A stretch of 41,883 nt of DNA, from the NCBI GenBank assembly GCA_020072765.1, contig JAIQGD010000025.1, forward strand, positions 1 to 41,883. The letters are read 5' to 3'. Shown here piece by piece: positions 34,772 to 41,883 of the stretch. Under the pieces are notes generated by a model. The model was not told the origin of the DNA and did not search any database. It saw only the letters and a list, made by a program, of their open reading frames with translations. The stretch's first letter is position 1. Every line of letters starts with the position of its first letter. Source of the stretch: Terriglobia bacterium. Its GTDB lineage: Bacteria; Acidobacteriota; Terriglobia; Acidiferrales; UBA7541. Made by a program: the position numbers and the translations under genes.

Positions 34772-34912
34772 TCAGCCACCGCGGAGCTGCTGCTTGAGGC
34801 GCTCGACCTCGTCGCGCAGGCGGGCGACGCGGCTGGCGATGGAGAGTTCGTAGACAAAGAAGACGGCCCACACGGCCATCCAGGCAGTGAAGAGATACTG
34901 AAAATTTTTCAT
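34772..34912 (-). CDS. ccmD: CcmD-like small membrane protein
   Basis: 46 residues: one membrane helix (FQYLFTAWMAVWAVFFVYEL, 4-23) and a charged helix (VARLRDEVERLKQQL). Size, topology and position immediately after ccmC fit CcmD, which aids release of haem-loaded CcmE from the CcmABC complex. Its ATG overlaps the ccmC stop (ATGA), so translation is coupled. The sequence alone is too short for certainty; context carries the call. Confidence 0.8.
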   Translation of the reverse strand: MKNFQYLFTAWMAVWAVFFVYELSIASRVARLRDEVERLKQQLRGG

Positions 34913-35637
34913 GGCGTATCCTTTCGGGAACCGGGCGTGACGGCGGAATTCGAGTCGGAGGTGCGCGCCTCGACTTCGAGGCGAAGTTCGTCGAGTTCGT
35001 GGCGCAGGCGTTCGAGGCGGTAGCGATCCATCAGAATCGGAATCATCACCCCGAAAATGGCGACCACGCACAGGCCCAGAACTTTCCCCATGGTGGGGTC
35101 GAGGCCCGATCCCTGTCCGCCGAGAACGACGGGCTGGGGATGCTGGGTTCTCCACAGGCGGTTCGAGACGTAGACCAGCGGCACATCCAAATAGGCGAAG
35201 ATGCCGAAGACGGCGGACAGCGTGGCGCGGCGCTCAGGGTCCTCGAGCAGGTCGCGGAGCAGCAGATAGGATACGTAGAGCAGCCAGAGAATGAAGGTGG
35301 TCGTGAGGCGCGCGTCCCAGGTCCACCAGACGCCCCACACCGGGCGCGCCCAGAGCGGGCCGGTGATCAGGCCGATTGTGCAGCAGGCCACGCCCACTTC
35401 CGCGGCGGCCACGCCGAGGGAATCCCATTGGGGGCGGCGCGTGAGGAGGTAGGCGACGTTGGCCAGGAACACCACCGTAAAGGCCGTGAAGGACGTGATC
35501 CACGCCGGGAGATGGAAGTAGAACACGCGCTGGATTTCGTGCATGGTTCGCTCGTCGGGGGCGATGTACAGCGCCGCATACCCGGCGAAGACGACCAGCG
35601 CGGCGATCAGGGCGGTGCCTGCGATTCGGGCTTTCAT
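34909..35637 (-). CDS. ccmC: Haem exporter protein CcmC
   Basis: 242 residues from ATG 35637, chosen for GAGG 8 bases upstream; ATG 35655 overlaps the ccmB stop and is the alternative. Six membrane helices surround the tryptophan-rich haem-handling motif WGVWWTWDARLT near residue 100, flanked by the conserved His of EIQRVFYFHLPAW (near 43) and a later His in LWRTQHPQ. CcmC loads haem onto CcmE at the periplasmic face. The C-terminal ~45 residues are a charged cytoplasmic extension not seen in short homologues. Confidence 0.93.
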   Translation of the reverse strand: MKARIAGTALIAALVVFAGYAALYIAPDERTMHEIQRVFYFHLPAWITSFTAFTVVFLANVAYLLTRRPQWDSLGVAAAEVGVACCTIGLITGPLWARPVWGVWWTWDARLTTTFILWLLYVSYLLLRDLLEDPERRATLSAVFGIFAYLDVPLVYVSNRLWRTQHPQPVVLGGQGSGLDPTMGKVLGLCVVAIFGVMIPILMDRYRLERLRHELDELRLEVEARTSDSNSAVTPGSRKDTP

Positions 35638-35651
35638 TCGGGGAACCTCAC

Positions 35652-36326
35652 TCATTCCTCCAGTAAGAAGTCGCACAGAAGCCAGGAAGCGGTCAGAAAG
35701 ACAATATCAAATCCCGCGAGAAAAGTGGTCCAGGTGCGGTCGAGGTCGGGCTGGTCAGCGAGCAGCGACGCGGTGGCTTCGACGGCGGCGATGAGCAAAG
35801 GAGCCAGAATCGGGAGCAGCAGCAGCGGCAGGAGGAGTTCGCGCATCCGCGCGTGCGCCGAGACGGCGGAAAAGACCGTGCCGGTGATGACGATGCCGAG
35901 GGTTCCGAGGATCAGCACCAGGATCAGCCGGCCCACCACGCCCGCCAGCGAGACGTTGTAGAGCACGGCGAAGACCGGGACGAGCACCACCTCCGCCAGC
36001 GATAGGAAGATGAAATTCGCCAGCATCTTGCCCAGCAGAATGGCGAAGGTCGACACGGGCGCCATGCGCAGCGCGTCGAGCGTGTTGTTGGCCTGCTCGC
36101 GGCCGAACGACGGATGCAGCATCAGCGAGCCGGCAAACAGGAAGGCGATCCAGAGCAGGCCCGGTCCGTAGCGGCGGGATTCCTCGGGAGTGGGATTGAA
36201 GGCAAAGCTGAAGAGCACGACGACGACGAGAGCGAAGATGACCGTCGTATTCAGGAGTTCGCGCGTGCGGAATTCCAGGCGGAGTTCCTTGGTGAGCAAA
36301 ATGGCGGCGGCGCGGGCGGTGGTCAT
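35652..36326 (-). CDS. ccmB: Haem exporter ABC permease CcmB
   Basis: 224 residues with six membrane helices. The N-terminal AAILLTKELRLEFRTRELL and the later LLWIAFLFAGSLMLHPSFGR, EQANNTLDALRMAPVS are typical of CcmB. It is the membrane subunit of the CcmAB transporter whose ATPase releases holo-CcmE. Its ATG directly follows the ccmA stop (TGAATG), showing tight coupling. Confidence 0.93.
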   Translation of the reverse strand: MTTARAAAILLTKELRLEFRTRELLNTTVIFALVVVVLFSFAFNPTPEESRRYGPGLLWIAFLFAGSLMLHPSFGREQANNTLDALRMAPVSTFAILLGKMLANFIFLSLAEVVLVPVFAVLYNVSLAGVVGRLILVLILGTLGIVITGTVFSAVSAHARMRELLLPLLLLPILAPLLIAAVEATASLLADQPDLDRTWTTFLAGFDIVFLTASWLLCDFLLEE

Positions 36327-37079
36327 TCAGGCCTCGGAGCGAAGGGCGTCCAAAATAGGGCGCGGGTCGCCGCCCGGGCCGCTGTCGCGTTCGATGCGCC
36401 CGCCGGCCAGTAAAACCGCGCGGGTGGCGAGGTCGAGCGATTCATTGCGCGCATGGGTGCTCATGAGCACGGTGCAGCCGCTCTCTCGCAGGTGCGCGAG
36501 CGTTTGGCCGAACCAGGCGAGCCCCTGGCGATCCAAGCCAGCGGCGGGCTCGTCGAGCAGCAGCAGGCGCGGGCCGTGCAGCAGGGCGCGGGCGATGGCC
36601 AGGCGCTGGCGCATCCCGCGAGAAAACGTGCGCACCAGGCTGCCGGCGCGGGAAGCCAGGCCGCAGGCTTCGAGCGATTGCGCGACGCGCCCGGGTATGG
36701 CGGGGACGCCGTAGAGTTGCGCGAACAGCGAAAGATTTTCCGCGGCGCTCAGCTCGTCATAGAGCAGCGTGCTGTGGCCGACCATCCCGGTCAGGCGCTT
36801 GGCATCGTCCACGGTGACCGGAGGGCTGGATGCGGTGCCGGGGGTGAAGCGCACCTGGCCGCGGGATGGATTCATGAGCAGTGCGGCGATGCGGAGCAGG
36901 GTGGTTTTGCCCGCGCCGTTGTGGCCCAGCAGGGCCACGAATTCGCCGGGGAGAATCGCGAGCGAGAGGTCGCGCAGGGCGATAAACGATCCGAAGCGTT
37001 TTTCCAGTTTCTCAAACGAAATTCCCAGGCCCGTGACGCCGTGCGCGCCGTGGGCCGGAGCCGTGGGGTTTCCCGTCAT
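36327..37079 (-). CDS. ccmA: Cytochrome c biogenesis ATP-binding protein CcmA
   Basis: 250 residues from ATG 37079; the frame stays open upstream but lacks conservation. ABC ATPase motifs are in place: Walker [10 protein letters not shown] near 52-60, the signature [17 protein letters not shown] near 150, Walker [13 protein letters not shown] and the switch His in MSTHAR. It hydrolyses ATP with CcmB to release haem-loaded CcmE from CcmC. The first ~15 residues are Ala/Gly/His-rich and may not be part of the fold. Confidence 0.93.
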
Positions 37080-37111
37080 GGGAGCGGACAGTGCGCCGGA
37101 CAAGGTCGTCG

Positions 37112-38389
37112 TTAGCCTTTCACCAGATCGCGCAAAACCTTTTGCATGCGCTCGCGTTCGCGGGCGTACTCCTCTTGAGTGATGGTGCCGGCCTCGCGGC
37201 GCAATTCCAGGCGGAAGAGGGCATCCTTGAGCCCGTCGAGGCTCCCGCGAATTTCGCGGTCGACGTCGGCCGCTTTCGGTGCGGCTGCATTCTTGCGCTT
37301 GGAGGAGGGCGCCTCCACGGCAGCGGCTGCGGGCGCGGTTTGGGGCTGGCGCCACAGGTAGAACAATCCAAAGGCGAACAGCACGCCGAATCCGGCGACG
37401 ATAATCCACTTCAAACTGTCCAGACGGGCGGGCATGGTCGTGACGCTGGCGGCGGGAGCCTCGGCGCCGGATTCGGCGCGCGAGTTGACCGCAGGGTTCT
37501 GCGAATCATCACCGCCGGCAGGGCTCGAGGCGCCCGAGCTTTGGGGCGCCGCCGGAGCGGTGCCGGAAACCGAGATCGCGAGCGGAGCGTTGGCTGCGAC
37601 CGGGCCGTGAAAGTAGACGTTGAATCCCTGCTCCTGGCCGGCCGGTGAAAACCCCTCGCCCTGAATCTGAACCGAGGGCTGCGCAAAAACCGCCACGCGT
37701 TCGGCGGCGTAGCGCGAGACGACCGCAAACCGGGTCTGATTGCCGGGGTAAGGCACGCGATACGACAGGCGCACCTCGCTGTCTCCAGGCCGGAAGGCAT
37801 AGGCGATAGCTTGCCCGCTGGCGCCCTTGTCGATGGGGGTCTGATTGACGGGCATGCCGGAGGCGGCCACGGCGGAGACGTCGCCCAGTTGGGCGCCGGC
37901 GGGTAGGGAAAACGAGAACGAGCCATCGGCGCGGTAATAGGCGACCGGAGGCTTCGTACTGTTCTGGATGTTGTACTCTTCGGCGACGACCAGATCCGAT
38001 CCGGTGGGCTGCAGGATGATGGCGTGAGCCGTGACGCGGAAGGCGCTGGGTTTGTCGGTCGGCTCGAAGACCTGGAGGTCCGCGGTGGTTGTGCCGGGCG
38101 GCACCGGCTCGTGATAGTTCACGCCGCGATAGACGGCGCGGAGGAGCATGGGCGCGGTCCCGAGCATGGAATGATCGAACTGGTAGTGGCCCTGGGAATC
38201 GGTCTTGGTGTTGGCGACCGGCTGCATGGTTCCCTGGAGCTGGATGAGGATCACCTCCACGCCCACCGCGGGTTTGCCGGTGGTGCCGTTGCGGACCGTG
38301 CCCGCGACCGTGCCGGCCAGCGATGCGGAGGCCAGCAGGCCAAGAAGCAGCGAGGCAAGGATGAACCGGTGACAATGGCGAAGCATCAT
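37112..38389 (-). CDS. Secreted/anchored carboxypeptidase-regulatory-like protein in ccm cluster
   Basis: 425 residues. A signal peptide (1 to about 25) is followed by a carboxypeptidase regulatory-like (Ig-type) domain (~26-105: [20 protein letters not shown], then [12 protein letters not shown]), a beta-rich region to ~275, an Ala/Ser/Pro linker, one membrane helix (~328-347) and a cytoplasmic helical tail ([37 protein letters not shown]). The start overlaps the previous stop (ATGATG). It sits inside the ccm operon between ccmI-like and ccmA, so a role in haem or apocytochrome handling is possible but unproven. It is not part of the classical Ccm set. Confidence 0.8.
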
Positions 38390-38724
38390 GAGCGGTGGCC
38401 CTTTTCTGAGGCGGCCTGGCGGGTCGCCGGTGTCGGAGTGCTGCCGGTGAGGGTGTCCATCTCGGCCAGGACGCGCGCGGCCTCGATTTCCAGCGAGCGC
38501 TTCGTTTCTTCGTAGTCGGCTTCGGAGAATTTTCCGGCGCGATATTCGAAGCGGAGGTCGCGCAGATTTTCGTAGATGGCGTCGCGCCGGTCCATGAGCT
38601 GATTGAGCTTGGTGCGATGCGGCGCGGCGTCGGAATCGCCGAGGCGCACGTTGAATACGAACGCGAGCGCGGCGGCGGCGAGCACGGCGCAGGAGATGGC
38701 GGCGGCGATGTCGAGGTTATTCAT
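38386..38724 (-). CDS. CcmI-like small membrane protein
   Basis: 112 residues with one N-terminal membrane helix (IAAAISCAVLAAAALAFVF, 6-24) and a charged helical domain (MDRRDAIYENLRDLRFEYRA, then ADYEETKRSLEIEAARVLAE). That domain resembles the N-terminal part of CcmI/CycH, which chaperones apocytochrome c, but there is no TPR region. Position after ccmH and overlap with the next gene support membership of the operon. The similarly built tail of the next protein may be related. Confidence 0.7.
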   Translation of the reverse strand: MNNLDIAAAISCAVLAAAALAFVFNVRLGDSDAAPHRTKLNQLMDRRDAIYENLRDLRFEYRAGKFSEADYEETKRSLEIEAARVLAEMDTLTGSTPTPATRQAASEKGHRS

Positions 38725-39290
38725 TGGATTCCTTCTCGGACTCCTGGCGGGCGCGATCGAGCAGTTCCGCTGAAACCTGGGGGCCGCCCGCCGGGGCCAA
38801 GGCGGCGCGCTGGCGCCAGCGGCGCACGACTTCCCAGACAATATACAGGGCGATGAAAGGCACCAGGATCGGAATCACCCAGGCCACCCAGTTGAAGCCC
38901 TTCGCGGGAGGCTCCGCCAGGACCGTCAGGCCGTATTCCTGAACGAAGGATTGCAGGATGAGCTGGTCGGAATCGCCGCGGGCGATGCGGTCGTCGAGTT
39001 CCTTGAGCATGGTGTGCGAAGTGGTGCAGCCGACGTGATTGCAGGCGATCAGGCCTTGGTTGCATCCGCAGACGCACAGCAGCTTCTGTCCCAGCGCCTT
39101 GGCGCGCGCCGATTGCTGCGCATGGCAAAGCGGGGCGGCGGCAAGGAGCAGGATGAGCAGAGAAGCTGAGGCCAGCTTCGGCCAGGGAAAGCGGCGGCCA
39201 GCCGCCGCACTCCAGAAACGGGACGGCACCGACAAAGGGGTGCCCCTGCGCAACTCTACCGGCGCCACGCCGGCGCTGCAAACGCGTTGG

Positions 39291-39298
<8 letters not shown>
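38717..39298 (-). CDS. ccmH: Cytochrome c maturation thiol oxidoreductase CcmH
   Basis: The functional part begins at the hydrophobic segment LASASLLILLLAAAPLCHAQ (signal or anchor), followed by LLCVCGCNQGLIACNHVGC, a Cys-rich form of the CcmH redox site, and a C-terminal membrane helix (WVIPILVPFIALYIVWEVV). CcmH reduces apocytochrome CxxCH thiols for haem ligation. The start is unclear. ATG 39298, overlapping the ccmF stop, gives 193 residues, but the first ~50 codons run through a REP-like palindrome (39188-39214) and other hairpins. A GTG at about 39227 is an alternative; no ATG or GTG lies between the palindrome and the signal segment. Confidence 0.85.
39188..39214 (+). repeat. REP-like palindrome inside the 5' end of ccmH
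   Basis: AAA-GCGGCGGC-CA-GCCGCCGC-ACTCCA differs from the 13498 and 2598 copies only at one base of the spacer. It lies between ccmF and the signal segment of ccmH, and is translated as SAAAGRRF if the long ccmH start is used. Confidence 0.75.
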
Positions 39299-41342
<2,044 letters not shown>

Positions 41343-41420
41343 GAAGCCTCCTTGCCCATCTCCTGGCAGAGCGATGAACGAACCCGCCGGCTCTGCTGGG
41401 AGGCTGAACTTCCCTGCGTG

Positions 41421-41861
41421 CTAACCGCCGCTGTTGCTTTGGCCGGGCTGCGCCGGAGCGCCGGGCGTAGAGCCGGGCGCGGCCTCGTATTTGGAGGCGC
41501 ATTTCGCTTGTACCAGTTCGGCGGTGAAGTGGCCGTCGGGCATCAAGCGGCCCTCGACCAGGGCCTGGGCTCCATCGCGAAATGTGTCGGGCAGGGGATC
41601 GCGGCCCGTGTAGCTCACCCCCAGGGTCTTACCCTGCTCCTCGAGCACGAAATCGACGCGGCCGGCGGGATGGGAAATCGAGCCGGCGCGGACATTGCCG
41701 GAGACGCGCATGCGCTGGTGAAGCGCGGAGCCCTGCAGCCCCGAAAGTTCGGAGATCGTGTGGTAGTAGGTATGGCTCTGGGTGAAGCCGACGTAGGCGA
41801 GGACCAGAAGCGTGGCCACGATGAGGCCCGATCCAATCATGAACTTCGCGCTGGCTTTCAT
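41421..41861 (-). CDS. ccmE: Haem chaperone CcmE, CxxxY variant
   Basis: 146 residues. An N-terminal membrane anchor (FMIGSGLIVATLLVLAYVGF, 7-26) precedes the OB-fold domain with SGNVRAGSI, the DFVLEEQGKTLGVSYTG strand pair and GRLMPDGHFTAELVQAKCAS. In most CcmE the haem is bound covalently by a His in an HxxxY motif; here the motif is C121-ASK-Y125. Such CxxxY-type proteins are known from some sulfate reducers and archaea. The C-terminus is a Gly/Pro/Ser tail. The gene is the first of the visible ccm genes; GGGGGG lies 7 bases before the ATG. ccmG is not visible and could lie beyond the right edge. Confidence 0.93.
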   Translation of the reverse strand: MKASAKFMIGSGLIVATLLVLAYVGFTQSHTYYHTISELSGLQGSALHQRMRVSGNVRAGSISHPAGRVDFVLEEQGKTLGVSYTGRDPLPDTFRDGAQALVEGRLMPDGHFTAELVQAKCASKYEAAPGSTPGAPAQPGQSNSGG

Positions 41862-41883
41862 AGGCCTGCCCCCCTGGTGGAGC

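Follow-up and report, generated by a model that had tools for sequence, protein, structure and literature searches.

A five-cysteine CcmH alongside a Cys-type CcmE in an acidobacterial cytochrome c maturation cluster

The cytochrome c maturation cluster in the window, a complete contig of 41,883 nucleotides (G000:C49) from a Terriglobia genome bin of 3.78 Mb and 152 contigs, encodes a CcmE with cysteine at the haem-attachment position together with a CcmH that carries five cysteines instead of the usual CxxC pair. Across several phyla, the type of CcmE was linked with the type of CcmH and with the presence of a neighbouring ccmG. Cys-type CcmE and its co-occurrence with CcmH were already known; the variant is named System I* and is described from Desulfovibrio, archaea and other bacteria (Allen 2006; Goddard 2010; both as cited in PMC3601427). 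We consider the cluster very probably a complete System I* machine of the kind usual in its class, in which the five-Cys CcmH matches the CxxxY CcmE and replaces the couple of CcmG and CxxC-containing CcmH.

Gene content of the cluster

All genes lie on the minus strand in the order ccmE, ccmF, ccmH, a small membrane ORF, a CarboxypepD_reg-like ORF, ccmA, ccmB, ccmC and a CcmD-family ORF. Just 22 bases separate ccmE from the contig end on its upstream side and, as the window is the whole contig, nothing further upstream is visible in it. The product of ccmE (41421..41861, 146 aa) matched the Pfam family CcmE with 80.1 bits (cut-off 24.6), and the structures 8ce8, 1sr3 and 2kct in the PDB. Its haem motif LVQAKCASKYEA (KCASKY) contains Cys121 (codon TGC, 41499..41501) and Tyr125 (41487..41489). 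Cys121 was aligned with the haem-binding histidine of the solved CcmE structures 8ce8 and 1sr3 as well as with the cysteine of Desulfovibrio vulgaris CcmE (2KCT), and the tyrosine of CxxxY was kept in all 20 sequences of alignment A1. The replacement of the haem-binding histidine by cysteine, first noticed in a sequence-only reading of this DNA, is thereby borne out.

The core proteins CcmA, CcmB, CcmC and CcmF were all present, two of them with scores below the cut-offs of their own NCBIfam models. The gene ccmF (39291..41342) encodes a protein of 683 aa with the Pfam domains CcmF_C and Cytochrom_C_asm. The ABC ATPase gene ccmA (36327..37409; Pfam ABC_tran) reached 122 bits with TIGR01189 at a cut-off of 131.6, and its ORF is probably too long at the N-terminus. 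CcmB (35652..36326) matched its Pfam family with 129.8 bits, and CcmC (34909..35676; Pfam Cytochrom_C_asm) scored 123 bits with TIGR01191 at a cut-off of 186. The last ORF (34772..35155) matched TIGR04391 (CcmD_alt_fam) in its C-terminal part with 25.7 bits, the cut-off being 24. Two further ORFs are situated between ccmH and ccmA: the small membrane ORF (38386..38841), which had no Pfam or NCBIfam match and which we take to be similar to the N-terminus of CcmI, and an ORF (37112..38389) with sub-cut-off Pfam matches to a CarboxypepD_reg or bMG3-like domain. Their C-termini share a similar stretch, short and charged (LRFEYRAGKFSEADY in one of them), presumably of the kind found in CcmI N-termini.

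A thioredoxin-like CcmG was not detected by Pfam and NCBIfam scans of the nine cluster ORFs. The rest of the bin contained seven TIGR00385-like proteins, all below the cut-off, and CcmG could be encoded elsewhere than in the cluster. The bin also held a single CcmH and one CcdA/DsbD-like protein; ResB of System II was absent from it.

The CcmH protein (38717..39436) matched PF03918 (Pfam CcmH) with 72.6 bits at a cut-off of 25, the only such match in the bin, and all 50 members of alignment A2 matched the same family. Its mature part probably starts near 39118, and the listed TTG start probably lies too far upstream. The AlphaFold2 model of this mature part had a mean pLDDT of 91.7, and a Foldseek search against the PDB returned CcmH 2hl7 as top match (probability 1.00, E 0.013, TM by target 0.66), with CcmH 2kw0 likewise among the top matches; a sequence search of the PDB gave antibody chains only, which are chance matches. 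Family and model thus agree on the three-helix periplasmic CcmH fold. In place of CxxC, the protein carries the five-Cys loop CVCGCNQGLIACNHVGC (39026..39076) with the pattern C-x-C-G-C-x6-C-x4-C. The canonical site LRCxxC is absent from the window CcmH and reads LLCVCGCNQGLIACNHVGC (LLCVCGC), with glycine at the position of the second canonical cysteine and four further cysteines. Among the 50 sequences of A2, the first and third cysteines were invariant and the second, fourth and fifth were conserved in at least 90%. The loop was modelled with high confidence and without regular secondary structure. The multi-Cys CcmH that the sequence-only reading had seen in the cluster is therefore a genuine family member; it is a non-canonical five-Cys subtype with the CcmH fold and not a leftover of the usual CcmH.

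CcmE type in relation to CcmH type and linked ccmG

A pattern search of genome contigs for Cys-type CcmE matched at least 590 stretches, and 574 were confirmed among the matches listed. The 80 loci kept belonged to Acidobacteriota, Latescibacterota, Chloroflexi, Gemmatimonadetes, Deltaproteobacteria, Deferribacteres, Zixibacteria and others; they were picked by the CcmE pattern and not by CcmH type, so the shares of Cys and His forms are not frequencies. The pairing was assessed in 200 loci (L063-L262) and 20 Chloroflexota loci (L270-L289), which together cover several phyla; two loci with an unreadable CcmE motif (L173, L176) were excluded. A CcmH was called canonical when the 30 residues starting at its first cysteine contained a CxxC and no other cysteine.

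Where a CcmH was found next to a CxxxY CcmE (n=107), it was never canonical: 106 proteins had at least three cysteines and one had a single cysteine. In contrast, CcmH was canonical in 19 of 19 loci with HxxxY or HxxxF CcmE and in 14 of 15 loci with CxxxF CcmE, the remaining one carrying CxxC plus two cysteines. Counting distinct CcmH motifs in the first 200 loci gave the same division (CxxxY non-canonical 98/98, His canonical 14/14, CxxxF canonical 6/7). The single-Cys case was L252, in which the CcmH adjoining the CxxxY CcmE has the motif region CPTASGPQPLAVSS. An alignment of CcmE and CcmH across the phylum had been proposed in the sequence-only reading; the co-occurrence of both proteins stood up, but that of CxxxY CcmE with an ordinary, CxxC-only CcmH did not (0/107).

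No CcmH was found in the available stretch of 70 CxxxY, 3 His and 4 CxxxF loci. The CcmH profile used here had been built up from the protein of the window and may overlook distant CcmH. Within the first 200 loci, 68 of 174 CxxxY loci had no CcmH in the stretch examined, some stretches ending early, which argues that CcmH is not always needed. Presence and absence of CcmH were both seen inside the class of the window organism, where in four loci (L075-L078) with CxxxY CcmE the roughly 9 kb that follow downstream contained no CcmH. In four other loci (L151, L156, L162, L175) an adjacent CcmE-like pair was observed, one member with KCPSKY and the other divergent (KCPHRY, KCPHQY, RCPENY or unreadable).

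The Cys-rich CcmH proteins vary in the number and spacing of their cysteines (3 to 6). In the first 200 loci, CxxC occurred together with extra cysteines in 14 of the 106 CxxxY loci with CcmH, for example as CYACPGEPLNIDRC in Desulfobacterota and as CPVC...C...C in Anaerolineae, and forms of the type C-x-C-G-x-C contain a CxxC two residues downstream. Because some Cys-rich forms thus retain CxxC, the rule is one of extra cysteines and not of a CxxC missing everywhere. Long ORFs that include the CcmH domain, mostly at the expected position of CcmF and by this position CcmF-CcmH fusions, were encountered beside either type of CcmE and in several phyla (L090-L092, L096, L154, L158, L164, L170, L179, L180, L182, L195, L199, L200, L206, L216, L237, L240, L241, L282, L285 and L287). 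The idea that such fusions are exclusive to Cys-rich CcmH was dropped, as the His-type loci L282, L285 and L287 have long CcmH-containing ORFs too.

Linked ccmG followed the same division. It was searched for within 7 kb in the 160 of 198 typed loci whose flanks reached 5 kb or more downstream and 1.5 kb or more upstream, 38 loci being excluded for short flanks. With a ccmG profile seeded from His and CxxxF loci, a linked gene was detected in 3/88 CxxxY loci with Cys-rich CcmH and 3/49 CxxxY loci with no CcmH, against 13/14 His and 6/6 CxxxF loci with canonical CcmH; the small remaining groups were CxxxF with four-Cys CcmH (1/1), CxxxF with no CcmH (1/1) and His with no CcmH (0/1). An unseeded plain motif scan pointed in the same direction (5/106 and 1/68 vs 8/13 and 5/6). 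Two of the three Cys-rich CxxxY loci with ccmG (L259, L261) have a four-Cys CcmH bearing CxxC, and their CcmF places them beside the His-type set.

That CcmE residue and CcmH type go together might reflect nothing but the common ancestry of an ancient operon lineage, with no functional meaning, a reading to which we give somewhat less than an even chance. On the CcmF tree of 132 rows, two changes were needed for CxxxY vs the rest, three for CcmH type and three for His vs Cys, with one to two independent pairs, and a tree of 119 rows agreed; repeated independent co-changes were thus too few for a sign test. The short CcmE tree calculated without the motif (113 columns) required a single His/Cys change. 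With so few changes, the correlation is mainly one deep division whose parts were passed on jointly, and common descent could suffice to link the traits. Read from the CcmF tree, the pattern amounts to two System I lineages and not to repeated co-adaptation. Against descent as the whole explanation, the presence of ccmG splits in the same way too, and the CxxxF systems of Chloroflexota are placed differently by CcmF, which groups them with canonical systems, and by CcmE, which sets them among the Cys-type sequences (weakly supported branches in both cases), so that parts can be exchanged.

CxxxY, CxxxF and HxxxY forms are all present in Chloroflexota. The CxxxF loci of this phylum (L249-L251, L254, L256, L257, L271, L272, L274, L275, L278-L280 and L284) combine a CPS[KR]F CcmE, with phenylalanine for tyrosine, with a canonical CxxC CcmH, and ccmG is usually linked as well. 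If the tree placement holds, these systems would be mosaics of both lineages and the window cluster would not.

Putative role of the five-Cys loop

According to published work, haem is exported by CcmABCD, loaded on CcmE and transferred by CcmF. By analogy with the homologues described there, CcmABC(D) would export haem and attach it to Cys121 of CcmE, where Tyr125 is likely to be the second ligand. CcmF would receive the haem and, together with CcmH, attach it to the CXXCH motif of the apocytochrome. The attachment at Cys121 is presumably covalent: haem binding by a Cys-type CcmE is described for D. desulfuricans (PMC3601427), and the cysteine of CxxxY is reported as required for haem attachment in Methanosarcina acetivorans (PMC9084895). 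Non-covalent haem binding was reported for the CcmE of D. vulgaris (PMC3884852).

The five-Cys CcmH, which accompanies the CxxxY CcmE, would stand in for the thiol couple of CcmG and CxxC-type CcmH. A modelled CcmF/H complex has the CXXC of CcmH near the haem site of CcmF (PMC10663686), and with this placement the five-Cys loop would face haem and apocytochrome. The ordered loop probably lies beside the active site of CcmF, where it may hold the thiols of the apocytochrome in readiness with no CcmG dedicated to this task. It could be a relay of several thiols or a thiolate site that binds a metal, and it possibly aids the release of haem from Cys121.

In a purely metal-binding version, the loop would hold a zinc, iron-sulphur or haem site with a structural or haem-handling function and no thiol redox role. 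The strong conservation of the five cysteines in A2 and the confident modelling of a loop free of regular secondary structure are in its favour, but the variable number and spacing of cysteines among Cys-rich CcmH proteins speak against it, and although this alternative is plausible, on balance we doubt it.

Taking the thiol role of the five-Cys CcmH further, System I may consist of two matched machines, one of His-type CcmE, CcmG and CcmH with CxxC, the other of Cys-type CcmE and five-Cys CcmH with no CcmG; in the latter, the loop at the CcmF active site might help to break the thioether between CcmE cysteine and haem or replace CcmG as thiol donor. This extension is speculative and, taken as a whole, rather unlikely. 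It touches on two questions described as open in PMC3601427, namely how the stable CcmE Cys-haem thioether is broken and how System I* manages without CcmG. If true, the five-Cys CcmH would be the compensatory feature that, according to the 2011 review, bioinformatics had not found. A CcmH subtype that goes along with Cys-type CcmE and the lack of ccmG in one phylum after another is a testable candidate for this missing part.

From the sequence alone, it had been suggested that the cluster may be an intermediate or hybrid System I. In such a system, a Cys-type CcmE would still use the thiol pathway of ordinary CcmH (and CcmG). A CcmH-family protein is indeed present in it, and such combinations exist elsewhere, as the CxxxF loci with CxxC-only CcmH and linked ccmG demonstrate; those Chloroflexota systems are a better hybrid candidate than the window. 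The window CcmH, however, has five cysteines and lacks the CxxC spacing, no ccmG is linked in the cluster, and the class shows one and the same state. Searches for PF03100 detected it in 56 of 61 relatives and in 184 of 297 genomes of the phylum; the best 30 phylum loci by score comprised 19 Cys and 11 His forms. All 30 sampled same-class CcmE loci, 18 of them from the same family, carried KCAS[KR]Y; this is a fixed state rather than a transitional one. Close relatives with HxxxY and identical neighbours, which the sequence-only reading had named as counter-evidence, did not occur among these 30 loci. As CcmH had also been reported in Cys-type systems before, we abandoned the hybrid interpretation as improbable. 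The hybrid look of such clusters under annotation alone is explained by the Cys-rich CcmH subtype.

An artefact of sequencing or assembly in the Cys codon, raised earlier as a caveat and conceivable so near a contig end, where assemblies are least sure, is ruled out for practical purposes by the identical codon on a second, 94% identical contig and by the cysteine in 30 of 30 sampled same-class relatives. This second contig end of the bin (G000:C45) matched the window over 896 bases; its locus 51224-51469 (L002) was compared with the ccmE/ccmF start at 40990-41883. Because its ccmE bears a 1-base insertion, it is probably a strain variant or an assembly end rather than another functional gene, and the idea of a second ccmE paralogue in the bin was rejected.

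Comparison with known systems

Canonical System I CcmH proteins (P. aeruginosa 2hl7, E. coli 2kw0) share PF03918 and the fold with the window CcmH. They differ in having CxxC, the pair being replaced in the window by the loop with glycine at the second Cys position and four further cysteines.

The Ccm system of M. acetivorans, as described in PMC9084895, has a CxxxY CcmE like the window, but it has no CcmH and its CcmF is split in two. For three Archaeoglobales, which are Cys-type CcmE organisms, putative CcmH-like proteins that are rich in cysteine and lack LRCXXC are described (PMC4600277; among them Geoglobus and Ferroglobus). Going by the published description, the archaeal proteins carry LX[S,N]C[E,D,H]C and occur in two copies flanking a second ccmF, whereas the window has one C-x-C-G-C-x6-C-x4-C protein after ccmF and reads KLLCVC where that motif would stand. 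Our literature search, thin on subscription papers and hence weak evidence, returned no paper that ties Cys-rich CcmH to Cys-type CcmE across bacteria.

With System I*, the window shares the CxxxY CcmE, CcmABC, CcmF and the lack of a linked CcmG. The 2006 definition of System I* included the absence of CcmH, which was later withdrawn as a defining feature (PMC3601427). The window departs from that original definition by its CcmH and resembles the roughly one third of bacteria with Cys-type CcmE in which CcmH was reported in 2011, CcmH absence thus not being characteristic of the variant (PMC3601427).
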